Below, one piece after another: positions 5,901 to 27,439 of a stretch of DNA of 32,670 nt. Each line of letters begins with the position of its first letter. The first letter of the stretch is position 1. The position numbers and the translations under genes were made by a program. Source of the stretch: Oscillospiraceae bacterium (lineage in GTDB: Bacteria; Bacillota; Clostridia; Oscillospirales; Acutalibacteraceae); NCBI GenBank assembly GCA_022508845.1, contig JAFLUL010000002.1:33453-66122 (forward strand), given 5' to 3'. The notes beneath the pieces were generated by a model. It searched no databases and was not told where the DNA came from. It was given only the letters and a program-made list of their open reading frames with translations.

Positions 5901-8900
5901 TGCAAACTACCCCCACACGGGTACGGCCATTGAGGCATGGTATTCCGACAGCAGCCTCAGCGACAGCAGCTATGCCGGAAAGCCCGGGGAAACCTATAAG
6001 CCCGGAAAAAACGTTGACCTCTATGCAAAATGGGTTGAGAATGAATATGATATTATTTATGCCGCAAACGGCGCAGAAGGAACGGCGCCCGATTCGCAGA
6101 CCGGCATAAAATATGACGAGCATGTTACATTAAAAGACAGCGGAACGCTTTCAAAAACAGGCTATGAATTTGCCGGCTGGAACACCGAGGAAAACGGCAG
6201 CGGAACTCAGTATAATGCCGGAGATAAGGTTCAAGGGCTTACAATGGACAGCTCCATAACCCTTTATGCGCAGTGGACGCCCAAAACCTATACCGTTACT
6301 TTCCATTCCAATGACGGTACAGGCAGCTCCGCAGCAGCTTCGGCCACCTATGACGCAGCCTGGCCTGCCGCTCCCTCCATTGCTCGCGCCGGACTTACCT
6401 TTGAAGGCTGGTACAGCGAGAACGGAGAGGTTAAGTATTATAACGCGGACGGCACTCCCGTTAACAGTGCCTACACAATTGACGGCGATACGGAAGTTTA
6501 CGCCAAATGGACGACCGTTAAATACAGCATAAAATATGTGTCGGGCGTTGCCGGAGATACCAATGTTTCGGATATGCCTGAAACTAACCCCGCCGAAAAG
6601 GAATACGGAGTTAACTTAACTCTTGCCTCCGCTCCGAAAAGAACCGGATATGTTTTCGCAGGCTGGGCAACCGTCGACGGAAAAATTATTTATGCAGCCG
6701 GAGCCGATTTTAACGCCGATCCCGAAAATGTAACCGATGAAACCGTTATAACTCTCACTGCAACCTGGGAGGCTGTTAAATATACCGTTGAATATGACGG
6801 CAATGTTCCCTCCGGTGCTGACAGCAGTACGCTTTCAAACGTTCCCGCGGCTCAAACCAAAACCTACGGCGCAGCTCTTAAGCTGAGCGAAACAACTCCC
6901 TCGCTTGCGGGATATGAATTTTTAGGCTGGGAAATTTATGTTGGAGAAAACAGAATCGGCACAGGTATGCTTAATGCCGGAGCTGTACTCAACACGGACT
7001 ATGTTAACGCACAGGGTGAAAAGGTAACTCTTAAAGCGCATTGGACTGAAGTTGGATATAAGGTTATCTATAACGCAAACGGCGGCGAACCTGAAACTCA
7101 GGAATTTGATGTTTCATACGGTGTAACTTATCCCATACCCGAAGCTGTTACAAGAACCGGTTATGAATTTATCGGCTGGTTCACAAGCACAGGTGTTGAG
7201 ATACATCCCGGCGATGACGTTTATAATCCGCCGGCAGGAACGGTTCTCTTTGCCCGCTGGGAAATAAATAAGAGCACAGTTAAGGTTGATCCGAACGGCG
7301 GTAACTGGGATGGCGAAACCGAAAAGACCTATACTGACGGATATGATTCATATATTGATATCCCCGTACCCACAAGAGAAGGCTATACCTTTACCGGCTG
7401 GGTTCTTAAAGGCGAAGGCGATTCAGAGCCGAACGGAAAGCTCTATGACAATACCTATGTATTCGGCGCAGAGAAGAACAAAACCGATATCCTCACAGCT
7501 CAATGGGATCAGATAAAGTTTGATATAACCCTTATTCTCGGAGCCGGTTATGAGGTTGTTGAACAGAGCGCTTCTTCCGTTGAATATAACGGCAGTTATA
7601 CTGTTAAAATCAAACTTTCCGAGGGCTATACAAAGAGCGGCGCGCCGAGCGCAACGGTCAATAGCTTACCTCTTGGCGCTGTAGATAACGGCGACGGAAC
7701 CTATACATACACCGTTACTGAAATAAAAGAAAATAAGACGGTTAAAATTGAGGACGCTCAGAAAAACACTTATAACATTACCGTAACCGATGACGGCGCA
7801 AAAGGCATTGCCGGCTATGCGCCTCAAAACAGCGTAAGCGTTGAGCACGGCACCGGAACAACCACCATAACCGTAACTCTTGATGACGCTTACTCAAATT
7901 CAGATGCTCCGGTTATAACTTATAACGCTTCCAAGGCAAGCCTTTCCGGCGGCGTTAAGAAGGTCGTTAACGGCAAGACGGTTTACACCTATACGGTATA
8001 TAATGTAACTGATGATTGCGAGTTTATCATAGGCTCAGCAACAGCTAACAGCTATATTGTAACTCTCAGCGGAACAATGGTTGGATATACTGTTACAGAG
8101 TATCCGGCTTCGTCCGTTGAATACGGAAAATCAGTAAGCTTTACAATTGAGCTGGAAGACGCATACTCAAAGAGCGGCGCTCCCGAATGCTCCGTTAAAA
8201 TAGGCGAAAACGATGTTGAAAGCTCTGATATCAAGGTGTCTGTAAACGGCAGATTCATAACATACACCGTTGAGAACATAACTGATAACACTCAGATATT
8301 TATCGGGGATGCAGTTATAAACGAATATTCGGTAACTCTTGTTTCCTCCGATGTTGGTTACAGCGTAACAACCTATCCGGCGGCTGTTGTCAGCCATGGC
8401 GATAGCGTAACAGTTAAAATAATGCTCAACGAAGCTTACAGCAACTCTCCCGCCCCGGCCATCAGCCTTGATCCGGCAAGCGCAGGAAGCGCCCTGCGCC
8501 ATAAGAACGGCAATGAAGTTACCTATACCGTTACAAATATAAAGGACGATATCAAGATAACAATAGGCGACGCAGCAAAAAACAGATACACAGTAACATT
8601 CTATCCGGGCGCCGGAGTTGATATGTTTGATATGGATAAAAACGAGATCACCGAAGGTAAACAGTTCGCGGTTTATTACGGCGACAGCTTCAGCTTCACT
8701 CTCGGAAACACCGGCTCGTTTATACCCAAGGTTTTCGCAAACGGAGTTGCTGTTGAGCCGAATGCGAACGGAGTTTATACCGTAAATGTTACGAGAAATA
8801 TCATCATAACAACAGAGGACGTTAAGTATACCGTGATCTTTGTTGACTGGGATAATTCAATTCTTGCATCGTTTATAGTTTCGGCTCACGATAACGCTCC

Positions 8901-13151: not shown

Positions 13152-14525
13152 TCACAACGCTTTGGCGTTTTCAAGATTTATTAACACGGTATTAACGGAA
13201 AATGAATTTATTTTTACGGTTTCTCCAATGTTAAAGCCATAGCGTGTTAAATCATTTTCGGCATCGGTAACATAAATTTCTCCTCCGAAGCGAAGGCGAA
13301 GCTCTTTTTCTTTATCCGATGGGTTCAAAATAATAAAAATAAGCTTATCTTCCGTTTTGAAGGCGGCGGTCATAATATCACCGTCGTCGGTTTTTGCCGC
13401 AATTCTGACAGCCCCTCTCGGGATAAATTTTGAAAAGTTTCCGAAGGCGTAATATCTCTTTGTCATTTCAAAGCTCTGTGTTTTTGGGTCTATATACAAA
13501 AGTCCGTCGCAGTAGTCATAAGGAGAGCAGGCGATCCACCCCTGAAAAGAGGAAGCGCAAAGTATTGTTAAATCTTCAAGCATAACTCTCGCCTGAACGA
13601 GAGCGGAGTCCATGTAAGCATTTTTGCCGCCCTGCATATGGCACCATTCGCTGACCTTAATAGGAACGCCGGGGTAATTTTTATCCATCCATTTTCTGAA
13701 ACGCCTCAGATATGCCGGTCTGTTTCCGAAAAACGGGAGGCTGTCATTTAAGAAATAGGAGTGAACGTCCACCGAATCGACCATCCCGCGTATTTCGCTG
13801 TTGCCGAGCAGGGCTCTTGTGTAGCTCTTATTAAACCAGCGGATATCTCCGTTTTCGAGCCCCGAGAGCTTAACGTTTTTGAGCGCAGGGCGTTTTTTTA
13901 TTTCCCGGGCAAATTCTTTCATAACATATCTGCACCTTATCGGAGAATAATGGCAGCCCTCCTGCCCGCCGTTCCATACCCAGAGCGGCTCGTTTACGGG
14001 GGAAATATATTTAACGGGAAGCCCCTCTTTAATAAAATGCTCGGCAACGTCGGCGCAGTACTTCGCAAAGGCGGGAATATTCGATTTTTTTATGTTTGTT
14101 TTGCCGGTGCGGGATTTGTCGGTGTGGCCGAGGCCGTTTATTGTAAACTCCTCGAGGGGAGAATTAACAAAAAAAACCAGCTCCTGAGCGCCTTCTCTGA
14201 CTGCCGCTTTCATCATATAAACGCTCTCTTCGTCCTTTGAAAAATCAAGGCCGTTGGGAGTGTAAAAGCTCTGTGCGCGGCGCAAAGGGTCGCTGAAAGT
14301 TCCTCTGCCGCTTTCTGCCGAGCCGGAGCCGAGGTTATATCTGAATGTATCAATGCCGATGCCTGAGGTTTTATTAAAGAGCAGCCCGGCTATTTTATCC
14401 CGAACAGGAGTATTGTTTGGGCAAACGCTGCTCCATCCTCCAACGCTCTGAGCCCACCATGCCCCGCTTATTCCGAATCCGGACATTGTTTGAAAGGTTT
14501 TGCTTGTATCAATAAAAAGGCGCAT
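13152..14525 (-). CDS. GH30-type glycoside hydrolase, possibly subfamily 5 (beta-1,6-galactanase-like)
   Basis: This 457-residue protein has no signal peptide, so it is likely cytoplasmic. It has the (beta/alpha)8-plus-beta-sandwich layout of GH30: opening GFGISGAWWAQ, acid/base Glu179 in SPVNEPLW, nucleophile Glu293 in KVSEW, and a C-terminal beta domain (about 380-455) made of strands at both ends of the chain. The GAWWAQ and VNEPLWVWNGGQEGC stretches resemble GH30 subfamily 5 endo-beta-1,6-galactanases. The exact substrate is inference, and related beta-glycans or host glycans are possible. It is divergently transcribed from a GPH-type sugar symporter with which it shares the control region, which suggests uptake followed by intracellular cleavage of an oligosaccharide. 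AAGGAGGGG precedes the ATG. Confidence 0.8.
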   Translation of the reverse strand: MRLFIDTSKTFQTMSGFGISGAWWAQSVGGWSSVCPNNTPVRDKIAGLLFNKTSGIGIDTFRYNLGSGSAESGRGTFSDPLRRAQSFYTPNGLDFSKDEESVYMMKAAVREGAQELVFFVNSPLEEFTINGLGHTDKSRTGKTNIKKSNIPAFAKYCADVAEHFIKEGLPVKYISPVNEPLWVWNGGQEGCHYSPIRCRYVMKEFAREIKKRPALKNVKLSGLENGDIRWFNKSYTRALLGNSEIRGMVDSVDVHSYFLNDSLPFFGNRPAYLRRFRKWMDKNYPGVPIKVSEWCHMQGGKNAYMDSALVQARVMLEDLTILCASSFQGWIACSPYDYCDGLLYIDPKTQSFEMTKRYYAFGNFSKFIPRGAVRIAAKTDDGDIMTAAFKTEDKLIFIILNPSDKEKELRLRFGGEIYVTDAENDLTRYGFNIGETVKINSFSVNTVLINLENAKAL

Positions 14526-14545
14526 ATTTTCCCCTCCTTAATGCC

Positions 14546-14574
14546 AGTATATTACTTTTATTTCCTGTTGTCAA
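14546..14574 (-). promoter_or_regulatory. SigA-type promoter of the GH30 gene
   Basis: On the minus strand, TTGACA (14574-14569), 17 nt, TATACT (14551-14546). The -35 is half of an inverted repeat with the -35 of the divergent symporter promoter. Confidence 0.75.
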
Positions 14575-14585
14575 ATCCGGTTTAT

Positions 14586-14614
14586 TTGACATTAACCCTA
14601 AACTGTGATATTCT
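14586..14614 (+). promoter_or_regulatory. SigA-type promoter of the symporter gene
   Basis: TTGACA (14586-14591), 17 nt, TATTCT (14609-14614). It starts about 16 nt upstream of the symporter ribosome site. TGTCAAAT (14569-14576) and ATTTGACA (14584-14591) form a perfect 8-bp inverted repeat with a 7-nt centre across both -35 boxes. Confidence 0.65.
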
Positions 14615-14635
14615 TTAATTGAGGTGACGGAAAAT

Positions 14636-16114
14636 ATGAAAAATCCGCTTGGTTTTTTGTTTTCAAGGGAAGAAACCGACGAACATCTTCCGAACAGAGA
14701 AATTTTATCCTATGCCGCCGGATTGACGGGGCAGAACATTTCCTACAGCTTTATTTCAAGCCGCCTTACATATTTTTATGAAAATCACGCTGTAAGCCAG
14801 CAAAGCGCCAGCAAGGTTGGAAAGCTGATGACATATACCTACCTCTGGGATGCGGTGAACGACGTTATCGTTGGCGCATATGTTGATAAAAGGCCGCATA
14901 AGCCCTATCAGAAGATGAGGCCGTATCTGCTCTACTTTCCTGCCGTTATAGGCATTTTATGTGCTTTAATGTTTATAAAGGCCGGCTCCGGCGATATTTT
15001 TAAGCTCATTTATCTCGGAGTTCTCTATTTTATTTGGGATCTTTTGTATTCCTTCCAGGATGTGGGACTTTGGGGGCTTTTGGCGCTTTCATCGCCCCAT
15101 TCGCACGAACGCTCAAGGGTTGCGCAGTGGGTTACCATCGGCGCGGCGGCGGGCGGCACCATAGCCGGAGCATTTCCGTTTTTATGGGATGTATTAAAGG
15201 GAAGTGCCGGAATGAAAGAGAGCACTATATTTACGGTGTTTGCCTTTATCTTCGGCCTTGGCGGCGAAATGCTTTCTCTCAGGGCGGCAAAATTCAGAGA
15301 GAGAGTTGATTCCCCCGTTCAAAAGGACGAAAAAATATGGGAGTCCCTGTCCATTGTGCGCCATAATCCAACGCTCATATTTATCTCGCTTGCAAGATTT
15401 TCGCAGGGACTCAGCCCGAAAATAAATCAGACCTATTTCTTTCAGTCGGAATACCGCAATTCAAGCTCCGCTCTCTTAAAAGGAGGAACGGCGGAGGTGC
15501 TTTACGGCATTGTTTCGGGTTTTCCCGGGGCTATTGCGCTTCCGTTTGCAAATAAGATAATAGACCGCGTCGGCGGGATGAAGAGGCTGCTCCTGATTTC
15601 CCAGATAGCCGCTATTGTTACGCGCCTTATAGCTTTCGGCGTTGGAAGCATACCCGCTCTTAAATACAGCACCCCGGTTGGATTTGTTGTTATGTGTTTG
15701 CTTGTTGCAGTTCATAATATCCCCGGCGGACTTATGGATATAGCCCACCGCTCTCTTACCTCCGATTCAATAGACGAGGTTGAGCTGAAAACCGGTATAA
15801 GGAGCGAGGGAGTTTCGTTTTCGATGCAGAATTTTACAACAAAGCTAACTTCGGGCGTAAGCACCCGAATTCAGAACTTTTTCCTCTATAATGTTTTGGG
15901 CTATATTGCCTATGACGATGAAAACTACATAGCTATGCAGGGTGAAAAGTTTTATAAATGGCAGTATCCGCTGTTTATGCTCGGCCCGATTGTAGGAGCT
16001 GTGCTGTATATTGTTTTCATCAGCTTTGTTAAAGACAATAAGCAACACCGAGCGGAGGTTGAGAGGCTTCTCAAAGAGAGAAGAGCTGCCGTTGCCGAAA
16101 CAGCCGAAAACTGA
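14636..16114 (+). CDS. GPH/MelB-family sugar-cation symporter (MFS)
   Basis: This ~492-residue membrane protein has about 12 hydrophobic segments and reads as a glycoside-pentoside-hexuronide:cation symporter. It has the early YTYLWDAVNDVIVGAYVDKR motif (MelB helix II: W-D-x2-N-D-P-x2-G), a cytoplasmic RP-x2-PY, and a central loop. In the helix II motif the usual Asn-Asp-Pro is Asn-Asp-Val. A GTG at 14624 also opens the frame, but GAGGTG at 14621-14626 is a ribosome site 9 nt before the ATG at 14636, so I use that. It imports a sugar or small glycoside with Na+ or H+. Divergence from the GH30 gene ties the two functionally. The ribosomal GTPase gene follows after 9 nt and may share its transcript. 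Confidence 0.85.
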   Translation: MKNPLGFLFSREETDEHLPNREILSYAAGLTGQNISYSFISSRLTYFYENHAVSQQSASKVGKLMTYTYLWDAVNDVIVGAYVDKRPHKPYQKMRPYLLYFPAVIGILCALMFIKAGSGDIFKLIYLGVLYFIWDLLYSFQDVGLWGLLALSSPHSHERSRVAQWVTIGAAAGGTIAGAFPFLWDVLKGSAGMKESTIFTVFAFIFGLGGEMLSLRAAKFRERVDSPVQKDEKIWESLSIVRHNPTLIFISLARFSQGLSPKINQTYFFQSEYRNSSSALLKGGTAEVLYGIVSGFPGAIALPFANKIIDRVGGMKRLLLISQIAAIVTRLIAFGVGSIPALKYSTPVGFVVMCLLVAVHNIPGGLMDIAHRSLTSDSIDEVELKTGIRSEGVSFSMQNFTTKLTSGVSTRIQNFFLYNVLGYIAYDDENYIAMQGEKFYKWQYPLFMLGPIVGAVLYIVFISFVKDNKQHRAEVERLLKERRAAVAETAEN

Positions 16115-16123
16115 CCTGTTATT

Positions 16124-18733
16124 ATGGATAACTCTGCAAACAGCATAAAAAATAAAATAGTGTTGGGCGTTTTGGCCCACGTTGACTCGGGCAAGACCAC
16201 CTTGACCGAGGCGCTTATGTATTGCTCGGGAAACATTTCAAAGCTCGGACGGGTGGATCACGGCGATTCGTTTCTTGACACCGATCTCATTGAGCGCAGC
16301 AGGGGAATAACAGTTTTTTCAAAACAGGCCGTTATGAAATATGAAAGCACCTGCTTTACTTTGCTCGACACTCCCGGCCATGTTGATTTTTCCGCCGAGG
16401 CGGAGCGGACTTTGCAGGTGCTCGACTATGCCGTTTTGGTTATCAGCGGAACCGCCGGGATTCAGAGCCACACAAAAACTCTCTGGAAGCTGTTAAAAAA
16501 ATACAGTGTGCCGTGCTTTGTTTTTATTAACAAAACAGATCTTGCGGGATTTCAGAAAGAGAGCGTTTTAGCTTCGCTCTCAGAGCAGCTGAGCGAAGGG
16601 TTTGTTGATTTCAGCAGCCAAAACAGCGAGGAATTTTTTGAAAATATTGCCGTTTGCGATGATAAGCTCTTAAATTCCTATTATGAAAACGGCACAATAA
16701 CGCCGCAGGAGATACGTTTGGCAATAAAGGAGCGAAAAATTTTCCCCTGCTGCTTCGGCTCGGCATTGAAGCTCACGGGAATAGAGGAGTTTTTAAAAAC
16801 CCTCTGCTGTTACACCGAAATGCCCGTTTACGGCGGCGAGTTTGCCGCAAAGGTATTTAAGATAAGCGAAGATAAGCAGGGGAAACGCCTCACCTTTTTA
16901 AAGGTAACGGGCGGCAGCCTTCAGGTAAAGGATGTTATAAAGAGCGAAAAAAATGTTTCTTCTGAAAAGGCGGAGCAGATAAGGATTTATTCTGGTGAAA
17001 AATTTACTTCGGCAAATGAAGCTCCCGCGGGAACGGTTTGCGCCGTAACGGGAATAAATTTTGTTTCCCCGGGTGATGGGCTCGGAGCAGAAAAGAACAC
17101 CGCTTCGCCCGTTCTTAAAAGTGTTCTTACATATAAGGTTGAGCTCCCCGAGGGGGTTGACAGCCATTTTGCCCTTGAAAAGCTGAGAATTCTCGAAAAT
17201 GAGGATCCGCAGCTGGGAGTTCAGTGGGATCCTCTTTCGGGCGAGATAAGAGTGCGTCTTATGGGTGAAATGCAGCTTGAAATCCTTGAGGGGGTAATTG
17301 AGCGGCGTTTCGGATTCAAGGTTACTTTCGGCAAGGGGAGCATTATATATAAGGAGACGATAAAAAACACCGCCGAGGGAGTTGGACATTTTGAGCCTCT
17401 GAGGCACTATGCCGAGGTTCACCTTATCTTAAAGCCGTTAAAGCAAAACAGCGGACTTGTTTTTAAGTCATCGTGCCGAGAGGATCAGCTCGATAAAAAC
17501 TGGCAAAGGCTGATCCTTACCCATTTATATGAAAAAACTCACCTAGGTGTTTTAACCGGTTCGCCCATAACGGATATGGAAATATTGCTCGTTTCCGGCA
17601 GATCGCACCCAAAACACACCGAGGGCGGCGATTTTCGCCAGGCAACCTACAGAGCCGTGCGCCACGGCCTGAGAAAGGCCGAAAGCGTTCTGCTGGAGCC
17701 TATTTATGATTTTGTTCTTGAGGTACCGAGCGAAAATATCGGCAGAGCCATAAGCGATATTGAGCGTATGAACGGCAGCTTTGAATCTCCGGTTACTGCG
17801 GGAGAGTTTACCTCCGTCAGCGGAAGAGCTCCTGTTTCCGAAATGGACGGATATACAAAGGAGCTTTTGCAGTATACCCGCGGCAGGGGGAGCCTGAGCT
17901 GCGTTTTCGGCGGATATGAGCCCTGCCATAACGCCGATGAGGTTATAAAAAAAATTGGCTACGATCCCGATTTGGATCCCGAGAATCCCTGCGGCAGCGT
18001 TTTTTGTTCTCACGGCGCGGGCTTTAACGTTAAGTGGGATGAGGTTGAATCGCATATGCACCTCCCATTGAATTCTCAAAATAAAAATGCGGGCGTCTAT
18101 GAGAGGAGCGAGCCTTTTAAGGCCTATTCGAGGGGCGGAGATATTTTTGCTCTTGATAAGGAGCTTATGCGGATTTTTGAGCAGACCTACGGCCCCGTTA
18201 AGGAGAGAAAGGATCCATATAATATCCATACTCCGTCTATAAGCGGTAAAAATAAGTCAGAAAAGCTTGTAAGCTTGTCCGAACCGAAGTATCTCGGGAA
18301 AGAATATCTTTTGGTTGACGGATACAACGTTATTTATTCCTGGAACAGCCTTAAAAAGGTTTCCGAAGGCAGTATGGCCGACGCAAGGGATAGGCTTATA
18401 AATATTTTATGCAATTTTCAAGGCTATAAAAAGTGCGAGGTCATATTGGTTTTTGACGCGTATAAGGTAAAGGGAGAAAACAGAGAAGTTGAAGCCGTTG
18501 GCGGAATAAGCGTTGTTTATACAAAAGAGGCCGAAACCGCCGATACATATATTGAAAAGACCTCCCACGAGCTTGCAAAGGATCACAGGGTGAGGGTTGT
18601 TACCTCCGACGGGATGGAACAGATAATTATTCTCGGCAACGGCGCCCTCAGAGTGTCCTCCGATGCATTTTTGGAGGAGGTAAACGCCGCTCAGGAGGAG
18701 ATAAGAAAAATTATAGCGGGAGAGCCAATTTAA
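16124..18733 (+). CDS. TetM/EF-G-like ribosomal GTPase fused to a C-terminal NYN (YacP/Rae1-type) nuclease domain
   Basis: This 869-residue protein has two parts. Residues 1 to about 650 are a ribosome-binding translational GTPase of the TetM/TetO/EF-G superfamily: P-loop AHVDSGKT (18-25), switch I RGIT (60-63), DTPGH (82-86), NKTD (136-139), then EF-G-like domains II-V ending around a CSHGAGFNVKWDEV stretch. After a linker, residues about 726-869 form an NYN/PIN-like domain with the acidic residues expected for metal-dependent RNase activity: VDGYNV, VFDAY, ETADTYIE and TSDGMEQ. In Bacillus subtilis the stand-alone NYN protein YacP/Rae1 cuts mRNA in the ribosomal A site, the same site bound by TetM-type GTPases. 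A ribosome-delivered endonuclease is therefore a reasonable inference. No clear ribosome site precedes the ATG. It is probably cotranscribed with the symporter. Confidence 0.85.
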   Translation: MDNSANSIKNKIVLGVLAHVDSGKTTLTEALMYCSGNISKLGRVDHGDSFLDTDLIERSRGITVFSKQAVMKYESTCFTLLDTPGHVDFSAEAERTLQVLDYAVLVISGTAGIQSHTKTLWKLLKKYSVPCFVFINKTDLAGFQKESVLASLSEQLSEGFVDFSSQNSEEFFENIAVCDDKLLNSYYENGTITPQEIRLAIKERKIFPCCFGSALKLTGIEEFLKTLCCYTEMPVYGGEFAAKVFKISEDKQGKRLTFLKVTGGSLQVKDVIKSEKNVSSEKAEQIRIYSGEKFTSANEAPAGTVCAVTGINFVSPGDGLGAEKNTASPVLKSVLTYKVELPEGVDSHFALEKLRILENEDPQLGVQWDPLSGEIRVRLMGEMQLEILEGVIERRFGFKVTFGKGSIIYKETIKNTAEGVGHFEPLRHYAEVHLILKPLKQNSGLVFKSSCREDQLDKNWQRLILTHLYEKTHLGVLTGSPITDMEILLVSGRSHPKHTEGGDFRQATYRAVRHGLRKAESVLLEPIYDFVLEVPSENIGRAISDIERMNGSFESPVTAGEFTSVSGRAPVSEMDGYTKELLQYTRGRGSLSCVFGGYEPCHNADEVIKKIGYDPDLDPENPCGSVFCSHGAGFNVKWDEVESHMHLPLNSQNKNAGVYERSEPFKAYSRGGDIFALDKELMRIFEQTYGPVKERKDPYNIHTPSISGKNKSEKLVSLSEPKYLGKEYLLVDGYNVIYSWNSLKKVSEGSMADARDRLINILCNFQGYKKCEVILVFDAYKVKGENREVEAVGGISVVYTKEAETADTYIEKTSHELAKDHRVRVVTSDGMEQIIILGNGALRVSSDAFLEEVNAAQEEIRKIIAGEPI

Positions 18734-20051: not shown

Positions 20052-21155
20052 TTATTCCAGAGTTATGTGTCTTACGGCGGTTTTTGAAAGGCAGGTGCCG
20101 TCCTCTTCTCCGCCGCAGCAATATGATAAAAGCATTTCTTTTTCGTTTAAAAAGAGAATTGCGGGGTAGCAATAGCCGTGGTCGGGGTTGTTTTCAATGA
20201 CCGTATAATCGGAAAAATCAAGTCCGTTTTCGCTCACCGCCAAAACAAACGGCGTTCTGCCGGCGTGGATCCATCTCTTGTTTTTATCAAGTCTGCCGTT
20301 ATAGTTCGGTATGGGATTCCAAATAGAGTAATAAAGTCCCGAATAGGGGTTTTTAAGAATCAGCATGGGTGAATCGGGAGAGGTAAAGCGCGAGGGAACG
20401 GGACGCGACCAGTTTTTTCCTCCGTCAGATGAAAAGCTCTCAAACTGAAAATGCCTGTCGGTGCGAAAATATGCTAAAAGTCTGCCGTCGGAAAGCTCTG
20501 TTACTCCCGGCTCTTGAAGTCCTGTTTCGGAAAAACCGGGCATATACATTGAAACAATGTTTGAAACCTGTTTGAAATTTGTGCCGTCCGGATCGCCCTT
20601 ATAAAAGCAGCAGTTTCCGAAATATATTCCGCTGCGTCTGCCGCCGGGTCTTTTAACTATCCTGTGTCTTGCTAGCGGCAAAATGAGCGAACCGTCGCTG
20701 AGTTTGGCAACGCGGCAGTTATTTACAACATAATATATGTTTTTGAGCTGAGGAACGATAAGCTCCGGCTCGCCGAAAACGATATTTGTTTCGTCAATGC
20801 AGCGTCTTAAATACATTTCCGACTGGGGTCCCTGTTTGCAGAGATAAAAAAGGCAGAGAGTTCCGTTATCAAGCCGTTCAAGCGATACGCTCATAATGTT
20901 TAGCGTATTGTGCTGTTTTGCCTCGGCAAGAAAATGAGGAACTTTTTCAAAGCTCTTTCCGTTATCTGAGGAAACAATGGCGGAAACGTTGCAGGGGGCG
21001 TCATCGTGGCCGCTGGAGCCTACATATTTGCTGTAAGCAAAGAGAATTCTGCCGTCTTTCAGCTTGGCAAAATCGCCCTCGCTGTTTCGGGGATTGTTTT
21101 CCCCGGGAGGAAGCGTTGCGGTTATTTCTGAACTGAGGATTTTCGGTGCGTCCAT
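20052..21155 (-). CDS. Sialidase-fold (BNR/Asp-box) protein
   Basis: This 367-residue protein has no signal peptide. Asp-box motifs mark a sialidase-type six-bladed beta-propeller: SSDNGKSFE near residue 61 and SSDGGKNWS near 241, with further degenerate copies. The repeated DGRILFAYS, DGSLILPLARHR and DGRLLAYFRTDR strands fit exo-alpha-sialidase family annotation. I do not see a FRIP motif, so a true GH33 sialidase cannot be claimed; similar folds act on other sugars. A GGGAGA site precedes the ATG at 21155. It follows the amidohydrolase gene after 2 nt, so both are one operon, and both look cytoplasmic, suggesting breakdown of an imported small molecule. Confidence 0.75.
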   Translation of the reverse strand: MDAPKILSSEITATLPPGENNPRNSEGDFAKLKDGRILFAYSKYVGSSGHDDAPCNVSAIVSSDNGKSFEKVPHFLAEAKQHNTLNIMSVSLERLDNGTLCLFYLCKQGPQSEMYLRRCIDETNIVFGEPELIVPQLKNIYYVVNNCRVAKLSDGSLILPLARHRIVKRPGGRRSGIYFGNCCFYKGDPDGTNFKQVSNIVSMYMPGFSETGLQEPGVTELSDGRLLAYFRTDRHFQFESFSSDGGKNWSRPVPSRFTSPDSPMLILKNPYSGLYYSIWNPIPNYNGRLDKNKRWIHAGRTPFVLAVSENGLDFSDYTVIENNPDHGYCYPAILFLNEKEMLLSYCCGGEEDGTCLSKTAVRHITLE

Positions 21156-21157
21156 CT

Positions 21158-22003
21158 TTATTCTCCCAACAGCCTTTCGGCGTTTTTATACAGTATTTTT
21201 TCCTTTTCCTCTTCCGAAAGCGGCAGCGATAAGAAGTCCTCAAGAGAGCTCTTCTGCGAAGTCCAGGGGCTGTCCGTTCCGAACAGAACCCTGTTTGCAC
21301 CAAAGATTTTTATCGTTTTTATAAACTGCTCCGAGTCCATAAGGGGCAATTCCTCGGGAGTGTAGTAGTCCGGCTCGGTGGGATGGATAGCGCCGTATGA
21401 AAAAGCGGTGTCGATATAGGTGTTCTTAAAGTCAGCAAGCTGATAAACCTGCTCCCACTGCTTCCAGCCGCCCATATGCGCTAAAACAAGAGTTACATCT
21501 CCAACCTGCTTCAGTGCGTTTGCCGTTTTTGAAACGGCTGCCTGCTCTTCTCCGGGAAAGCCTACGTCAAGCCCTGCGTGCATAACAACAAAAAGTCCGT
21601 TTTCTCCGGCGCAGTATAAAAGCTCTAAAAACTTTGGGTCGTCAATATCGGTATACTGATAAACGGGATGAATTTTTATGCCCTTTAAGCCAAGCGAGGG
21701 AATTCGCGCCATCTCCTTTTTCATATCGGGAGTGTGCGGGTGCATTCCTCCGAGGTGATAAATTCCGTTTATTCCGTTTAGTTTAGCCGAAAAATTGTTT
21801 ATACTCTCGGTTTTTTCGGGATTCGTTACAACGGGTAAAACAACGCTGTTTGTTATTCCCGCTTCTTTCATTGAGGCAAGAAGAGCCCCTTCGCTCCCGG
21901 TTGTGTAGGCTGTAAGGCGCGACATATCGCTCATATTCTGAACGGTGTCAGCGGCGATTTTGTCCGGGAAAGTGTGAGTGTGAAAGTCAATAATTCTTTT
22001 CAA
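21158..22003 (-). CDS. Amidohydrolase-superfamily (PF04909-like) metal-dependent hydrolase
   Basis: This ~281-residue cytoplasmic protein has the amidohydrolase TIM-barrel metal site: FHTHTF near the N-terminus (the HxH pair), a KIHP motif, HAG, HMGG, and the late Asp in GTDSPW. This order matches the PF04909 group (ACMS-decarboxylase/uronate-type lactonases and dehydratases). The exact reaction is unknown. The frame is open from a GTG at 22012, but AGGTG lies 6 nt before a TTG at 22003, which gives MKRIIDFHTHTF as the N-terminus, so I prefer the TTG. It is the first gene of a two-gene operon with the sialidase-fold gene. On the minus strand a TATAAT at 22038-22033 could be its -10; I see no good -35. 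Confidence 0.75.
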   Translation of the reverse strand: MKRIIDFHTHTFPDKIAADTVQNMSDMSRLTAYTTGSEGALLASMKEAGITNSVVLPVVTNPEKTESINNFSAKLNGINGIYHLGGMHPHTPDMKKEMARIPSLGLKGIKIHPVYQYTDIDDPKFLELLYCAGENGLFVVMHAGLDVGFPGEEQAAVSKTANALKQVGDVTLVLAHMGGWKQWEQVYQLADFKNTYIDTAFSYGAIHPTEPDYYTPEELPLMDSEQFIKTIKIFGANRVLFGTDSPWTSQKSSLEDFLSLPLSEEEKEKILYKNAERLLGE

Positions 22004-22090
22004 AACGATCACCTGTTTTATTTATTTCCGTTATTATAGTAGCGCATATAACAAAAAAAAGCAATATTCGGCTGCTAAATTAAAAAAATC

Positions 22091-22119
22091 TTGACAATTA
22101 TTTTTTTATGTGTTAATAT
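22091..22119 (+). promoter_or_regulatory. SigA-type promoter of the cobalamin-riboswitch operon
   Basis: TTGACA (22091-22096), 17 nt, TAATAT (22114-22119). The transcript would begin near 22126, right where the riboswitch-like sequence starts. Confidence 0.8.
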
Positions 22120-22127
22120 TTTATTAA

Positions 22128-22328
22128 CAATCTGATATGCGGGAAACAAGGAAATCTCGGTGAAAATCCGTCGCAACCGCCATTGCCGTAATTGGGAAAC
22201 CATAAGTCGGAATGCTTGCTCCCGTGTAATACCTGATCACCTTTGGGAAAATGGGCTTTTTGCCCGGGGAAGGGTGTGACGTAAAGCAGCACGGCTCTTA
22301 GGGGGCTGTGGCTCAGCGTATTTATGTT
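22128..22328 (+). promoter_or_regulatory. Cobalamin riboswitch (B12 element) leader
   Basis: The leader carries pieces of the cobalamin riboswitch core in the right order: GCGGGAAAC, then CGGTGAAAATCCG (the P4-type hairpin with a GGTGnAAATCC core), GCAACCGCC, a GTAA, and later AGTCGGAATGCTTGC, which corresponds to the 3' conserved box. The flanks TATGCGGG and CCCGTGTA pair as an outer stem. After the core (from about 22232) a GC-rich variable region includes a GGGC-TTTTT-GCCC hairpin. The core is short, closer to the compact cobalamin classes, so which cobalamin form is bound is not clear. It should turn the downstream five genes off when cobalamin is abundant. Confidence 0.75.
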
Positions 22329-22362
22329 GCACCGCTCTTTTGAGGCAGGTGCTTTTATTTTT
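22329..22362 (+). terminator. Riboswitch intrinsic terminator just before the first gene
   Basis: GCACC (22329-22333) pairs with GGTGC (22348-22352) and is followed by TTTTATTTTT (22353-22362). It ends 4 nt before the ATG at 22366. The ribosome-site-like GAGG lies inside its stem, so both transcription and translation could be controlled. Confidence 0.7.
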
Positions 22363-22365
22363 GCT

Positions 22366-23544
22366 ATGAAAATTTATAAAAGAATTATTACATTACTGCT
22401 GATTTGTGTTTTGTGTGCAGCGTCGTTTTCATTTTTTTCATTTGCTGAAAACGGTACTGCAACAGTCAGTGTTGAATTGCTTTCAATAGGCTCCGGTTAT
22501 ATTGTTTCGCCCACACAGGTAGCTGTTTCGGGAACCGAGCGTGCAAGCGAGGTCTTGATGAGGCTTGTTTCTGAAAACGGATATGTGTGTTATTTCGGCG
22601 GCGAGAGGGATTCATCGTTTTATCTTGCATATATAGCGGATGGAAATAAAAGCGGGAGATATAACGGCTATAAATGTTCCTCAGAATTATATCCCGTTTC
22701 CTCTCCCAAAACGCTGAACTTGCGCGAAAACATTCCTGAGACGACGAAGGATTTTTTATCAAAATACGCCGATTTTTTTGACGAAGGCGATTACCGCGAA
22801 AATTTTCGCGGATATATAGGCGAATTTGTTTACACAAACGGCTCGGGATGGATGTGTTCGTTGAACGGCGGTTATTCTCAAAAAGATCTCTCCGCTATTT
22901 ATCTTAAGCCCGGCGACACATTAAAGCTCCAGTTTACTCTCTATCTCGGAGTTGACCTCGGTGCGGCTGATGAAGAAACTCAAAGGATATTTAACGAAAT
23001 GGTTTCGAAGAGTGAACAGACAACCCTTGCTCCCGAAACAACAACAAAAGCTCCCGAAACAACAACAAAAGCCCCCGAAACAACAACAAATGCTCCCGAA
23101 ACAACAACAAAAGCTCCCGAGGCGACAACGAAAGCTCCCGAGGCGACAACGAAAGCTCCCGAATCGACAACAAAGACCCCCGAATCGACAACAAAAGCCC
23201 CCGAATCGACAACAAAGGCCCCCGAGACGACAACAAAATCCTCAGAAACAACAACGAAAGCTCCCGAAATAACCTCAGCTGAATCCGAAGGGCATCAGAC
23301 GGAATATTCTGAAACAGCCGAAGAAACAGAGGCTTATGAAGAAGATTCTTTCAAAGAAATCGAGAGTGAAATCCGGGATGAAGAAAATAATTCTGAAGAT
23401 AAAACGGATATATCGGATGAGCCTCAGAATGAACCAAAAAGAATTGTTATTGCGGTAATTGCAGCCGCGGCGGTAGTGGCCATATCTGCCGGTGCTGTAA
23501 TAATTATAAAAAACAAAAAAGGAGAAAAACACAGTGAAAATTAA
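22366..23544 (+). CDS. DUF4430 surface protein with Thr/Pro stalk and C-terminal membrane anchor
   Basis: This ~392-residue protein opens with a signal peptide (MKIYKRIITLLLICVLCAAS..., cleavage near SFA-ENG). A DUF4430 (transcobalamin C-terminal-like) beta domain lies at about 30-200, with the late SGWMCSLNGGY and LKPGDTLKLQFTLYLG signature. A stalk of about 14 TTKAPE-type hexapeptides follows, then an acidic stretch, a transmembrane helix (IVIAVIAAAAVVAISAGAVI) and a short basic tail. No LPXTG is present. An ATG at 22324 is in frame but inside the riboswitch leader, so I take the ATG at 22366 with its clean signal peptide. The stop overlaps the next gene by 11 nt. Expected at the outer face of the membrane, it likely binds a corrinoid or holds the partner domains. 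Confidence 0.8.
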   Translation: MKIYKRIITLLLICVLCAASFSFFSFAENGTATVSVELLSIGSGYIVSPTQVAVSGTERASEVLMRLVSENGYVCYFGGERDSSFYLAYIADGNKSGRYNGYKCSSELYPVSSPKTLNLRENIPETTKDFLSKYADFFDEGDYRENFRGYIGEFVYTNGSGWMCSLNGGYSQKDLSAIYLKPGDTLKLQFTLYLGVDLGAADEETQRIFNEMVSKSEQTTLAPETTTKAPETTTKAPETTTNAPETTTKAPEATTKAPEATTKAPESTTKTPESTTKAPESTTKAPETTTKSSETTTKAPEITSAESEGHQTEYSETAEETEAYEEDSFKEIESEIRDEENNSEDKTDISDEPQNEPKRIVIAVIAAAAVVAISAGAVIIIKNKKGEKHSEN

Positions 23545-24535
23545 AAAGATATTGAGCGTTGTTTTTGCTGCCCTTATCTGTATGTCCTGCTTTGCTCTTA
23601 TTGCCTATGCCGATAATGCGGCAGGCAAGGTTTATATCAGCCTTGAAGATTTCGGTGACAGGGATTATCTGCTCGAATACTGCGATGAGGATGAAATGGC
23701 ATATCTCGAGCAGTTCGGCGTTATAGTTCCGAAAACCGAGGTTCCGATATATGCGGGCGAATCGGTTGCCGAGGCTGTTGTAAGATTTTTTGAAATGAAC
23801 GGCATTAAGTATAATGCATACGGTACACCGGAGCTTAACGGCGGCTTTTATCTTGTTGATATAAGCTTTACCTCGGGAAATGAATATGTAGATAGTTTCG
23901 GCGAAGGTTCCATAACTCCCGACGATGATTTTATGCGTTATTTCAGCGGCTGGATGGTAAAGCTTAATAACTGCTTTACTTCATCGGGAATTTCCTGTTA
24001 TGAGGTCGATGACGGCGATATAATAGAAATTCAGTATACCTGCTCTATGGGCGCGGATCTGGGCTACGATTTCAGCGTTCAGTCGGCCGCAATAACAGGT
24101 ATTGTTATTGATGAAAGCTACGGAACCATTTCCCCCGAGTTCAGCGAAGATATAAAGGAATATACATTAACTCTGAATGACGGTGTAAACTCCGTTAAGC
24201 TGGCTGTTCAAAACGAGAACTATTCTTCCGTTGTAACCTATTCGGCTAACGGAACAGAGTATAAGTTTATGAGAGATATTCCCGTTCAGGACGGCACGGT
24301 TATAACCGTTAAGAGCGAATACTATGCCTCCGATTATCCGGATTATGTTCCCTATCTTTTCGATGAGGATGAAATAACCATAACGGTGGTAAAACCCGCA
24401 ATCAAAGAGCCTGAGGAAGACGGCGATACCTCGTTCCTCGGCAGAATTAAGGCCTTCTTTGCAAAAATAGGCAATTTCTTTAAAAATATTTTCTCAAGAA
24501 TTTCTGATTTTTTCAGCGGACTTTTTAACAGATGA
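23534..24535 (+). CDS. Secreted DUF4430 plus cadherin-like protein with amphipathic C-terminus
   Basis: This 333-residue exported protein starts at a GTG (23534) with AAAGGAG ahead. The signal peptide runs to about residue 26 (AYA-DNA). The DUF4430 domain at about 70-175 has YSGE-type features, SGWMVKLNN and the end YTCSMGADLG; here the core reads F-S-G-W-M-V. Residues about 185-290 look like a cadherin-like beta-sandwich (GTISPEFSEDIKEYTLTL). The C-terminus (IKAFFAKIGNFFKNIFSRIS...) is a long amphipathic helix similar to the giant protein's tail. Its stop overlaps the next gene's start as ATGA. Together with the other operon members it is probably part of a surface corrinoid-binding complex. 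Confidence 0.75.
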   Translation: MKIKKILSVVFAALICMSCFALIAYADNAAGKVYISLEDFGDRDYLLEYCDEDEMAYLEQFGVIVPKTEVPIYAGESVAEAVVRFFEMNGIKYNAYGTPELNGGFYLVDISFTSGNEYVDSFGEGSITPDDDFMRYFSGWMVKLNNCFTSSGISCYEVDDGDIIEIQYTCSMGADLGYDFSVQSAAITGIVIDESYGTISPEFSEDIKEYTLTLNDGVNSVKLAVQNENYSSVVTYSANGTEYKFMRDIPVQDGTVITVKSEYYASDYPDYVPYLFDEDEITITVVKPAIKEPEEDGDTSFLGRIKAFFAKIGNFFKNIFSRISDFFSGLFNR

Positions 24536-25701
24536 TCACCCGAGTTTTTTCAAAAAGAATCCTTAAAGCAGGCTGTGTCTTTTTAGGCACGGTCCTGCTT
24601 TTTTGCTGTGTTTTTTCTGTTTCTTATGCTCAAAATAACAGTTCGCAGCTCCAAGACTATATTAACAGTACTCTTGACGCAAGATTTTCTCACACGGATT
24701 TCTTTGATGAGAGCGAAGTCGGCTCAACTATGTGTGACTGGATAGCCTTTGCAATGGGGCGCTACGCTATAGTTTATAATGATGGAAAAAGAGAAGTTTT
24801 TTGCAGCGTGCAAACAGATGAATATGCCGACGCTGCAGAAAAGTATCTCAGGGATTTTTATGAGACAAGCGGGGTTAAAACCTCGGTTAAGCTAACGGAA
24901 TATTTTCGCACTGCCATAACGCTGACCGCGCTGGGGCGGGATGTTTCAGATATTATTAAGGCGGTAACGCTCAATAATCCCGTTTCTCTCTCAAGGCTGG
25001 CGGTTATGACTCTTTCCTATGCGCTTATAGCTCTTGAGATTAGTGATATTAAACCCGATGAAGGCTCTGTCCACACCGAACAGGAGTTTATTGACAGGCT
25101 GATTTCCCTGCAGCTTGATGACGGCGGCTGGAGCCTTACCCCTCTTCTTGCAGGCAGCTCCGATGTGGACGTAACCGCAATTACCCTGCAAGCTCTTGCC
25201 CCGTTTTTCAGGGCGGGAAATAAGGACGCTGTTTCGGCTGTGGATAAAGCTCTTGTTTTTCTCTCTTCCCGTCAGAGAAGCAGCGGAGATTTTGCATCCT
25301 ACGGAGTTTTTAACGCGGAGAGCACCTCGCAGGTTTTGGTTGCCTTAACTGAGCTTGGCATAAACTTTTATTCGGACGAACGTTTTATTAAAGACGGCAA
25401 CACCGTTCTTGACGGACTGCTTTTATACCGCCTCTCCGACGGCAGCTTTACCCACGCTTTTACCAAAGACGATCAAAACGCCTCGGCTGTTCCGGGAGCA
25501 TATAATTATCTCGCAACCGACCAGGCGGCCTATGCTCTTGTTTCCTGCTGGAGGCAGCAAACGGAGCTTAATTCCCTTTATAATATGCGCGTCGATGTGT
25601 CAGATTTTGCAGACGTCGATATTGTTTCCGTTTTGAGCAGCTTAAGAGAGCTTCTTTTTAGGCTCGTATATATTCTCTTTTCAGAATTCATTACGCTATG
25701 A
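24532..25701 (+). CDS. Secreted alpha/alpha-toroid protein (transcobalamin/intrinsic-factor alpha-domain-like)
   Basis: This 389-residue protein has a signal peptide (..CVFLGTVLLFCCVFSVSYA). Its helical repeats have the signature of terpenoid-cyclase/prenyltransferase toroids, the fold also used by the alpha domain of intrinsic factor and transcobalamin: LQLDDGGWSL...DVDVTAITLQAL, RQRSSGDFASYG...STSQVLVAL and YRLSDGSFTHAF...TDQAAYALV. No prenyltransferase zinc or DDxxD-type catalytic residues stand out, so a binding role fits better. The C-terminus (SLRELLFRLVYILFSEF) is a hydrophobic or amphipathic helix. Overlaps of 4 nt on both sides imply translational coupling. It is a paralogue of the next gene. 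Confidence 0.75.
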   Translation: MITRVFSKRILKAGCVFLGTVLLFCCVFSVSYAQNNSSQLQDYINSTLDARFSHTDFFDESEVGSTMCDWIAFAMGRYAIVYNDGKREVFCSVQTDEYADAAEKYLRDFYETSGVKTSVKLTEYFRTAITLTALGRDVSDIIKAVTLNNPVSLSRLAVMTLSYALIALEISDIKPDEGSVHTEQEFIDRLISLQLDDGGWSLTPLLAGSSDVDVTAITLQALAPFFRAGNKDAVSAVDKALVFLSSRQRSSGDFASYGVFNAESTSQVLVALTELGINFYSDERFIKDGNTVLDGLLLYRLSDGSFTHAFTKDDQNASAVPGAYNYLATDQAAYALVSCWRQQTELNSLYNMRVDVSDFADVDIVSVLSSLRELLFRLVYILFSEFITL

Positions 25702-26918
25702 AAAAAATAATATCATTTATTCTTATTATACCGATAATATTTTCATTTTCCTTTTCAGCGCTTGCCGGGAGTCTTTCTGAGCAGGAGATTTGCGCTGTTG
25801 CCTCAGGCATTGCCGAATATAAAAGGAATGGAAAAGAAACGATGTTTTCCGGTTCCTTTCTTGAATCGGCGGGCTCAACCGCAGGCGATTGGTATCCTCT
25901 CGGGCTGTCGCTTTTCGGGTTTAACGAGGATTATAAGGCTTTTCTCTCTGCGCTCCGGGATAATGTACGCGAGCGTTATGAGTCTGATGAAAAATTAAGC
26001 TCCGATAAGGCAACCGAATGGCACCGAATAATAATTTCATCCCTTGCTTGCGGTGCTGATCCGGAAAATTTCTGCGTTACAAAAAGCGGTGATACCATAA
26101 ACCTTTTGGCAGACGGCGTGTATTACAGAAAAAATATAGCTCGCCAGGGTATAAACGGATATATATGGGGGCTTATTGCGCTCAATACCCGCAATTACGC
26201 CGAGCCTAAGGACGCGGTAAATACAAAAGATAGCATTTTATCAGAGCTTCTTTCGCGGCAGCTTGAAAACGGCGGCTGGAGTATGACAAAAGCTGCCGAT
26301 ACCGATATAACCGCTATGGCTCTGATCGCCCTTTCACCATTTTATGGGAAAAATGACGAAGTTACCGCCGCAGCGGATAAAGCTCTCTCCCTTTTATCTG
26401 ATATTCAGCTCGAAAACGGCGGATATGCGCAAAGCGGAATTGAAAACAGCGAGAGCTGTGCGGAGGTTATAACTGCTCTCTGCAGCCTTGGTATAGACCC
26501 CGAAAATGACAAAAGATTTATAAAAAACGGCCTTAGTCCGGTTGACGCTCTTTTGAGCTACCGCCTTAATAACGGCTCGTTTACTCACTCTTTTGTTTAT
26601 GATAAAGAAAACCCCTCCGCGGTTTGCGGAGAGGCCAATGATATGTCGTGCCAGCAGGCGTTAATTGCTCTCGGAGCGCTTTATAAGATGAAAACGGGCG
26701 GTGATACCGTATTTGATTTCAGCGCGGCATCCGTAAACAGCGATGGCTTCGATTCAGTTCCCAAAGAGCCGGGTGCAGCTCAAAAAGCATTAGAAACTCT
26801 CAATGTTTTTTTCTCCGACGCGGATAAGCGCAAGGTATTTGTTTCAGCCGCCCTGCTTATTGTTATTGCCGTTTTGGTATTGTCTTTTATTAAGAGGAGA
26901 AAAAAGAAAAAGCAATGA
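25698..26918 (+). CDS. Membrane-anchored alpha/alpha-toroid protein, paralogue of the preceding gene
   Basis: This 406-residue protein has a signal peptide (MKKIISFILIIPIIFSFSFS...ALA), toroid repeats RQLENGGWSM...DTDITAMALIAL, IQLENGGYAQSG...SCAEVITAL and YRLNNGSFTHSF...SCQQALIAL, and a C-terminal transmembrane helix (AALLIVIAVLVLSFI) followed by KRRKKKKQ. Each repeat has the Q-x-x-x-GG-[WY] pattern of prenyltransferase-like toroids, and the repeats align with those of the preceding gene, so the pair arose by tandem duplication. The free gene product and this anchored one could bind corrinoid alone or with the DUF4430 partners. ATGA overlaps link it to both neighbours. Confidence 0.75.
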   Translation: MKKIISFILIIPIIFSFSFSALAGSLSEQEICAVASGIAEYKRNGKETMFSGSFLESAGSTAGDWYPLGLSLFGFNEDYKAFLSALRDNVRERYESDEKLSSDKATEWHRIIISSLACGADPENFCVTKSGDTINLLADGVYYRKNIARQGINGYIWGLIALNTRNYAEPKDAVNTKDSILSELLSRQLENGGWSMTKAADTDITAMALIALSPFYGKNDEVTAAADKALSLLSDIQLENGGYAQSGIENSESCAEVITALCSLGIDPENDKRFIKNGLSPVDALLSYRLNNGSFTHSFVYDKENPSAVCGEANDMSCQQALIALGALYKMKTGGDTVFDFSAASVNSDGFDSVPKEPGAAQKALETLNVFFSDADKRKVFVSAALLIVIAVLVLSFIKRRKKKKQ

Positions 26919-27439
26919 AAAAGGATATTTTGATAGTCTTTGCAGTTATCCTCGCCCTTGCGGTCTTTATAGGGGGCAGCAATTTTCAGAGTGTTGACGA
27001 ATATTATCTTGTCCATATAGACGATATTGAAGATGACAGCGAAACTGTTTTTATTGAAATAAGATGCGATGATATCTTAAACCACCTTGACGATCTGGAT
27101 AAAAGCCTGAACAGCCCCGAATATGTTCCGTCGGACGGAGTTATTCTGCCCTTAACGGAATATGTCCTGCGCCCGGGCGATACTGCATTTGACCTTCTCT
27201 CCAGATGCATAAGGCGCAACCGCATTCAGATGGAATATCAGGGGCTCGATAAAAACGCCTTCGGGAGCGTTTATATTCAAAGCATAAACTATATTTACGA
27301 ATTTTCGTGCGGACCGCAGTCGGGCTGGATATTTACCGTAAACGGCGAGGTTCCAGATAAGGGCTGCTCCGCGTTTGAACTGGCTGACGGTGACAGGGTG
27401 AGCTGGATATATTCCTGCTCGCTTGATGAAGCATTCTGA
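26915..27439 (+). CDS. Short DUF4430 protein with N-terminal membrane anchor
   Basis: This 174-residue protein has an N-terminal transmembrane segment (ILIVFAVILALAVFIGGS) without a clear cleavage site, so it is probably an anchored exoplasmic protein. Residues about 80-172 are a textbook DUF4430 domain: GDTAFDLLSRCI, then YIYEFSCGPQSGWIFTVNG, P-x-x-G-CS, and the final DGDRVSWIYSCSL. Its shape resembles the cobalamin-capping beta domain of transcobalamin and intrinsic factor. It is the last gene of the operon, with an ATGA overlap to the toroid gene upstream. It ends in tandem stops TGA TAA, after which the same frame stays open for 45 codons. Confidence 0.8.
   Translation: MKKDILIVFAVILALAVFIGGSNFQSVDEYYLVHIDDIEDDSETVFIEIRCDDILNHLDDLDKSLNSPEYVPSDGVILPLTEYVLRPGDTAFDLLSRCIRRNRIQMEYQGLDKNAFGSVYIQSINYIYEFSCGPQSGWIFTVNGEVPDKGCSAFELADGDRVSWIYSCSLDEAF

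Follow-up and report, generated by a model that had tools for sequence, protein, structure and literature searches.

A five-gene surface operon behind a compact leader of the cobalamin riboswitch type in an Oscillospiraceae bacterium: a candidate split, intrinsic-factor-like corrinoid receptor

The locus and its gene products

The DNA analysed here, referred to as the window, is a stretch of 32,670 nucleotides from an Oscillospiraceae bacterium (contig C70, positions 33453–66122), whose genome assembly is 85% complete and comprises 2.36 Mb in 157 contigs. At positions 22366–27439 of the window, five plus-strand genes (P1–P5) lie downstream of a leader related to cobalamin riboswitches, and together they probably encode a surface receptor for corrinoids. 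In the open reading frame (ORF) listing, successive genes overlap by 11, 4, 4 and 4 nucleotides.

Hydropathy profiles gave signal-like N-termini for P1–P4, a hydrophobic C-terminal segment for P1, P3 and P4, and an N-terminal anchor for P5. In P1 (22366–23544), the signal-like region is followed by a DUF4430 domain, a Thr/Pro-rich linker and a C-terminal transmembrane segment with a basic tail. An alternative P1 start lies at position 22324; the start at 22366 is more likely, because it provides a signal-like N-terminus (MKIYKR) and is directly preceded by a terminator hairpin. P2 (23534–24535) combines a DUF4430 domain with a cadherin-like domain and, as judged by eye, an amphipathic C-terminus. 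P3 (24532–25701) and P4 (25698–26918) each carry an alpha/alpha toroid. The hydrophobic C-terminus of P3 is barely above the hydropathy threshold, and P4 ends in a transmembrane segment with a KRRKKKKQ tail. P5 (26915–27439) begins with MKKD and a transmembrane anchor, followed by a DUF4430 domain.

Assignment to the DUF4430 family (PF14478; Pfam cut-off 23.8 bits) is clear for P5, which scores 59.1 bits. P2 is borderline, with 23.5 bits in the scan of the window and 24.6 bits, above the cut-off, in the whole-genome search, and P1 falls under the cut-off at 16.7–19.4 bits. Profile–profile comparison with ten P5 orthologues places both P2 (E = 6e-27) and P1 (E = 1.6e-17) in the same family as P5. 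Within the organism's own genome, DUF4430 matches (E ≤ 1) are confined to the P1–P5 operon. The toroids P3 and P4 score 13.8–18.9 bits against Pfam cut-offs of 26.1–26.5 bits (PF13243, PF00432); they do not reach membership of these class II terpene cyclase and prenyltransferase families, though the fold is similar. A structural model of P4 is a helical alpha/alpha toroid (mean predicted local distance difference test, pLDDT, 92.6; predicted template modelling score, pTM, 0.83), and P3 is a paralogue of P4 at 140 bits. The initial annotation of this DNA, made from the sequence alone, had described five coupled genes overlapping by 4–11 nucleotides, three of them encoding DUF4430 domains and two encoding toroids, with all products exported or membrane-anchored; these descriptions agree with the ORF listing, the profile comparisons, the P4 model and the hydropathy profiles.

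A compact leader of the cobalamin riboswitch type

The leader contains a compact cobalamin riboswitch aptamer at 22097–22237 (plus strand). Its score against the Rfam cobalamin family RF00174 is 25.8 bits, below the gathering cut-off of 31.5 bits, so that an Rfam search at that cut-off returns no cobalamin match in the leader. The match nevertheless spans the full model (positions 1–189), with E-values of 7.8e-5 in the stretch and 1.2e-4 in the whole genome, and it is the sole RF00174 match in the genome at E ≤ 10. Just 5′ of the leader lies a promoter-like site at 22091–22119 (plus strand; TTGACA-17-TAATAT with an extended TG, 10 of 12 matches); the promoter scan was not selective, finding 8 passing sites where 10.3 are expected by chance.

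Downstream of the aptamer, two mutually competing pairings can be drawn. The 5′ half of an antiterminator helix at 22273–22285 (plus strand) pairs with 22321–22333 and is present in the minimum-energy folds. An intrinsic-terminator hairpin at 22329–22352 (plus strand), followed by TTTTATTTTT, overlaps the 3′ half of the antiterminator and lies 13 nucleotides before the likely P1 start. The folding energies are ordinary: the terminator region 22325–22372 folds at −12 kcal/mol with a shuffle z of −1.34, which is unexceptional, and the leader as a whole has a z of −0.73. A simple scan did not list the hairpin at 22329–22352. Both the antiterminator and the terminator are kept in the nearest relative, locus L113 from goat rumen, whose P5 is 82% identical and whose leader (L113:5112–5390) is 84% identical across the aptamer and expression platform. 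The L113 leader scores 17.1 bits against RF00174 (E = 0.039), and this is that genome's only match at E ≤ 10.

An alignment of 24 compact leaders was assembled from the window's own leader, 16 short matches from genomes of the same family (L193–L208; 21.7–50.2 bits) and seven leaders from a wider set of loci. Across three helices, 93.4% of alignment cells were paired, compared with 74.6% in shuffled alignments, and none of 500 shuffles reached as high a value; control structures slid along the alignment gave 27–57% pairing. The covariation score was 0.493 compared with 0.158 for shuffles, and helices 1 and 2 were paired in 24/24 leaders. One helix pair is C–G in 18 leaders and U–A in six, and is broken in none.

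From these comparisons, the leader belongs to a compact cobalamin riboswitch subclass with covarying helices. The initial annotation had proposed a cobalamin leader and an Rfam search as its check; the search fails at the gathering cut-off, and the assignment stands on the E-value, the covariation and the homologous leaders. A leader unrelated to cobalamin was considered and rejected, as the covariation and the homologous leaders contradict it. The terminator and antiterminator anatomy suggests that the leader would switch with B12. As an observation in its own right, the compact leaders score 17–50 bits, near or below the Rfam cut-off, and the subclass may deserve a separate covariance model.

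Riboswitch linkage across relatives

A search with P4 across 300 genomes of the same family, the organism's own genome (G000) included, gave P4-like toroid matches in 80. RF00174 matches at E ≤ 0.01 occurred in 60 of these 80 toroid-bearing genomes, 78 matches in all. For 52 of the 78, a toroid match followed on the same strand at a distance of no more than 10 kb; none had one this close on the opposite strand (0/78), and a single RF00174 match was located downstream of a toroid match (1/78). By this criterion of distance and strand, riboswitch and toroid are linked in 51/80 genomes, and in 36 of the 43 genomes with exactly one RF00174 match. By a rough estimate, chance would give about 0.2 linked cases in all.

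A wider set was obtained by scanning a genome collection with a P5 alignment and taking the best 80 of at least 553 loci. These come from Clostridia and Bacilli, among them Lysinibacillus, Sporosarcina, Kurthia, Siminovitchia, Ruminococcus bicirculans, Eubacterium ramulus and Desulfosporosinus. The RF00174 search covered 49 of the 80 and found a match at E ≤ 0.01 upstream on the same strand in 36, of which 34 lay inside the fetched locus; in L125 and L159 the riboswitch, placed by position only, precedes P5 by about 11 and 10 kb. The count rises to 38/49 when L113 (17.1 bits, E = 0.039) and L174 (motif plus alignment) are included. The riboswitch of L137 scores 100.6 bits. Positions in the wider set were checked with three sequence patterns, and some were accepted on a single pattern plus the sequence. 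Positions in L146, L151, L154 (three) and L165 (one) failed all three patterns, and those in L161, in L142 at 2337 and in L179 at 3126 fitted just one permissive pattern and were discarded on visual inspection; all nine were left out of the counts.

The initial annotation had also asked whether the same gene set lies under an unrelated regulator elsewhere. A cobalamin leader stands upstream in 51/80 family genomes and 38/49 wider loci, and other regulators were not searched for in the remainder.

Linkage to an ECF transporter

A Pfam scan of the 20 window proteins revealed no corrinoid transporter, in agreement with the earlier statement that neither BtuFCD nor an energy-coupling factor (ECF) transporter is encoded in the window; it does contain a sugar-type MFS gene, at 14624–16114. 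In most relatives, P5 is found directly 5′ of EcfT, a double ATPase and an S-component. EcfT follows P5 in 69 of the 79 loci, among the best 80 of at least 553, that have at least 1.2 kb of downstream sequence (65 by ORF profile and four, L122, L124, L126 and L147, by tblastn). Of these 69, 63 also have a toroid in the vicinity. The S-component was detected by ORF profile in 51 of the 67 loci whose downstream sequence extends to 4 kb or more, and the linked T component is of the CbiQ family. The ten loci without EcfT or EcfS in the fetched stretch are L113–L117, L135, L148–L150 and L191, and in 10/10 of these genomes a CbrT-type S-component homologue is present elsewhere.

Four of the relatives carry additional genes beside the toroid, at L040:4186–8663, L044:10997–15389, L047:4310–8719 and L050:11172–15567. 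One of these looks by eye like a MoxR-type AAA ATPase, and the other two are membrane-like ORFs. In L040 and L044 these three extra genes sit between the toroid and P5.

Searches with a relative's EcfT (E = 1.6e-88) and EcfS (E = 2.8e-67) located a complete EcfT–EcfAA′–EcfS set on another contig of the organism's own genome (C140; L105:2123–5308). The best match of the S-component in the Protein Data Bank (PDB) is 6FNP (E = 7.9e-9 over residues 53–224, and 1.4e-11). According to the relevant sections of PMC5997447, 6FNP is ECF-CbrT, which transports both cobalamin and cobinamide, and the ECF S-component is the substrate-binding protein. From sequence homology, the C140 S-component is related to CbrT, and B12 transport by the C140 set is predicted. 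The earlier suggestion that the transporter is encoded elsewhere has a concrete candidate, because this complete ECF set, to which the corrinoid would be handed over, lies in the same genome.

No FecCD/BtuC permease was found in the organism's own genome, whereas one was found in 13/14 control genomes, and BtuFCD was rejected as the transporter because the genome lacks a FecCD match. CbiC, the one enzyme examined in relation to the trait, part of the 2007 description of such operons (see below), that the host lacks key B12-synthesis enzymes, was likewise not found in this 85%-complete genome and is present in 7/14 controls. A MetH-like gene is present, with homocysteine methyltransferase, pterin and B12 domains. 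Separately, contig C125 (21733–43428) contains an unusual local cluster: 7 of the 12 matches to B12-binding domains in this genome fall there, in open frames of 553–661 residues.

Natural fusions and fold comparison

Among the best 80 of at least 553 loci, 19 ORFs fuse a toroid to a DUF4430 domain, genes that overlap by 4 nucleotides being excluded from this count. Eleven of the 19 have the toroid first, as in intrinsic factor (L184, L185, L171, L190, L176, L170, L179, L174, L182, L192 and the partial L188). Fusions of the P2+P3 type occur in L042, L068 and L060. All eight P4–P5 fusions examined share one layout: a signal, the toroid, a transmembrane helix, 2–11 mostly basic residues, a second transmembrane helix and DUF4430. 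Joining the end of P4 (transmembrane segment and KRRKKKKQ) to the start of P5 (MKKD and transmembrane segment) would reproduce this layout. From this topology, it appears that toroid and DUF4430 would both be placed outside the cell, side by side. Because relatives fuse these same partners, the fusions support P4–P5 and P2–P3 as putative partner pairs.

The initial annotation had contrasted the single polypeptide of animals with separate genes in bacteria. Toroid and beta domain are indeed encoded separately in the window, but relatives such as L184 carry both in one polypeptide; separate genes were therefore rejected as a bacterial rule in view of the 19 fused ORFs.

An AlphaFold model of the 536-residue L184 fusion was built from 8 sequences (mean pLDDT 74.3; pTM 0.53, so that the placement of its domains is uncertain). 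Its 15 top PDB matches are all transcobalamin, haptocorrin or intrinsic factor, with E-values from 7.1e-11 to 3.9e-7, and terpene cyclases rank behind these animal binders (E = 4e-6 compared with 7e-11). The isolated transcobalamin beta domain aligns to the model with a target TM-score of 0.81. Aligned identity between the model and the animal binders is 11–13%.

A proposed split, membrane-tethered corrinoid receptor

It is proposed, with a probability of about 0.77, that the operon encodes a split, membrane-tethered, intrinsic-factor-like corrinoid receptor that feeds a CbrT-type ECF transporter. This reading builds on what is directly seen, namely the genes, the leader and its covariation, the regulon-wide linkage, the natural fusions with their hydropathy topology and the transporter homologues; from these we infer corrinoid binding, the complexes, the terminator switch and the hand-over. 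At low intracellular cobalamin, the antiterminator would form and the five genes would be transcribed, and at high intracellular cobalamin the aptamer would favour the terminator. Outside the cell, which is of Gram-positive type, a toroid (P4, and P3) would pair with a DUF4430/SLBB protein (P5, and P2) and clamp the corrinoid between them, with neighbouring transmembrane helices holding P4 beside P5. P1, on its long Thr/Pro stalk, may act as an outer first catcher. The corrinoid would then be handed to the CbrT-type ECF transporter (EcfT, EcfAA′ and EcfS on C140), and once imported it would be used by enzymes such as MetH.

A more general proposal is favoured by a narrow margin of belief: that these operons encode a heteromeric bacterial intrinsic factor of Clostridia and Bacilli, in which toroid and SLBB proteins from separate genes, linked by adjacent membrane helices, would grip a corrinoid on the cell exterior and dock to a CbrT-type ECF transporter, with the compact riboswitch subclass in control, and which would represent the bacterial stock of animal intrinsic factor.

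Several observations weigh against the proposed receptor. The operon is patchily kept: 80/300 family genomes have a P4-like toroid match, but G076, G187 and G261, the others listed from the organism's genus, have none. No linked riboswitch was found in 29/80 family genomes or in 11/49 wider loci (L122, L128, L145, L146, L151, L160, L161, L163, L164, L166 and L187), and contig starts near toroid matches, together with filters that lose weak leaders, explain only part of these cases. Scores are low for the window's own leader (25.8 bits) and for those closely related to it (17.1 bits in L113). Of the five covariation measures, one is weak, with 7 double-change pairs compared with 5.8 in shuffles (72/500 as high), and the structure tested was derived from the same alignment on which covariation was measured. 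No riboswitch was detected for the C140 ECF set in the whole-genome RF00174 search, and with the genome 85% complete, absences are weak evidence. The L184 model superimposes on the animal binders with a root-mean-square deviation of 13.7–16.7 Å over both domains, and their clamp arrangement is not reproduced. For the P4 model by itself, the nearest structure is drimenyl diphosphate synthase (E = 1.2e-5), followed by transcobalamin (E = 4.8e-4), with GH105 hydrolases near. Finally, phmmer and alignment-profile searches of PDB sequences with P4 and P5 found no transcobalamin or intrinsic factor, and profile searches match squalene-hopene cyclase.

These last fold and profile matches, with class II terpene cyclases ahead of transcobalamin and GH105 close, would suit a B12-repressed surface system in which the toroids do not themselves bind corrinoids but serve as adhesins or as enzymes resembling terpene cyclases, prenyltransferases or GH105 hydrolases. 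Some toroid relatives are multi-domain surface proteins of 1000–2600 residues, and two of those scanned carry Big repeats. Such a system is nonetheless unlikely, given the linkage to a CbrT-type transporter in 69/79 loci, the fusion to DUF4430 (often in intrinsic-factor order), the signal-like N-termini of P1–P4 with the N-terminal anchor of P5, and the closer similarity of the fused chain to animal B12 binders (E = 7e-11) than to cyclases (4e-6).

It is similarly improbable that the target is a corrinoid precursor, another tetrapyrrole or a cobalt ligand and not cobalamin itself. The CbiQ family of the linked T component fits such a ligand, and characterised ECF-CbrT also moves cobinamide, as described in the relevant sections of PMC5997447; against this, the S-component has no better PDB match than its relative CbrT, and the leader is in the cobalamin riboswitch family. 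This alternative departs from the proposed receptor in ligand preference only. A decayed, non-functional leader with a constitutive operon, which would account for the score under the gathering cut-off and the ordinary folding energies (z of −0.73 and −1.34), is very improbable, as all three helices covary across 24 leaders, aptamer, antiterminator and terminator are kept in L113 at 84% identity, and the leaders of relatives lie at the same kind of position.

Relation to known systems

The SLBB superfamily was defined by Burroughs, Balaji, Iyer and Aravind in 2007 (PMC1796856). The relevant sections of that paper describe transcobalamin-like SLBB proteins, together with toroids, at the surface of Gram-positive bacteria and encoded in operons that also contain paralogues and CbiO/CbiQ genes, and propose B12 scavenging, surface complexes and the transfer of the toroid–SLBB combination to animals. 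The window resembles their clade from low-GC Gram-positives in its exported SLBB (DUF4430) proteins and in the presence of SLBB paralogues in one operon; several exported SLBB and toroid proteins are encoded together here, as in the operons that the paper delineates. It differs in that the toroids of that clade are fused N- or C-terminally to SLBB, whereas each domain has a gene of its own in the window, and in that the 2007 operons carry CbiO/CbiQ, whereas the window does not, its set lying on C140 and EcfT adjoining in 69/79 relatives. The operon is of the kind predicted in 2007, and the idea is not new. The present analysis adds the riboswitch regulon and the compact leader that goes with it, the link to a CbrT-type ECF transporter, including the detached set, and the membrane-hairpin topology of the fusions. 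PMC1796856 makes no use of the term ‘riboswitch’ in its main text, and its relevant sections do not name CbrT. Searches of open-licence papers listed no experimental study of these bacterial DUF4430 and toroid proteins, and the relevant passages of PMC7478625 and PMC8914203 contain nothing on them.

The animal binders intrinsic factor, transcobalamin and haptocorrin likewise combine an alpha/alpha toroid with a beta-grasp domain, in the order seen in 11/19 bacterial fusions, and DUF4430 is named as their C-terminal domain in the pertinent part of PMC4350170. They are single soluble polypeptides of about 400 residues, whereas the window encodes separate membrane-anchored proteins and relatives make fusions through two transmembrane helices. 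ECF-CbrT of Lactobacillus delbrueckii (PDB 6FNP; relevant sections of PMC5997447) shares an S-component homologous over most of its length and an ECF energising module; the system described here differs in having its own EcfT–EcfAA′ set, which in relatives stands beside extracellular receptor genes. Neither ‘lipoprotein’ nor ‘riboswitch’ occurs in the main text of PMC5997447.

BtuG and BtuH of Bacteroides (PMC6143338, pertinent sections; PMC8941943) are similar in capturing B12 at the surface, in belonging to riboswitch-regulated loci and in feeding a transporter. BtuG differs in being a beta-propeller lipoprotein that works with the outer-membrane transporter BtuB (PMC6143338 and PMC6977713, in part). 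In Lacticaseibacillus, the DUF4430 protein LGG_02295 and an ‘additional lipoprotein component of putative cobalamin ECF transporter’ provide a B12 link at the level of annotation (PMC9963975, relevant entries). These entries are annotation only, do not equate LGG_02295 with the lipoprotein and contain nothing on an operon for five surface proteins.

B12 uptake by Gram-positive bacteria of the gut and rumen is poorly known. If the proposed reading is right, many Clostridia and Bacilli have an intrinsic-factor-like surface receptor coupled to an ECF transporter, and an ECF transporter would be served by a dedicated extracellular receptor under a riboswitch subclass that the Rfam cut-off tends to miss. 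The 2007 prediction of a bacterial origin for the animal B12 binders would then become directly testable, given natural fusions of 536–651 residues and named isolates that carry the operon, for instance Ruminococcus bicirculans 80/3 and Sporosarcina ureae.

Neighbouring genes in the window

A gene with BNR repeats (sialidase-like) and an Amidohydro_2 gene, at 20052–22012 on the minus strand, are divergent from the operon and have their upstream region in common with it. Further upstream, a single ORF of 869 residues (16124–18733, plus strand) joins an EF-G/ribosomal-protection-like GTPase to a C-terminal YacP-like NYN domain, and at 13152–16114 a GH30-family glycosidase gene adjoins a divergent MFS_2 sugar-transporter gene. 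An ORF of 2495 residues at 2965–10452 (plus strand) has eight matches to the Flg_new (Listeria–Bacteroides) repeat and probably encodes a large surface protein.

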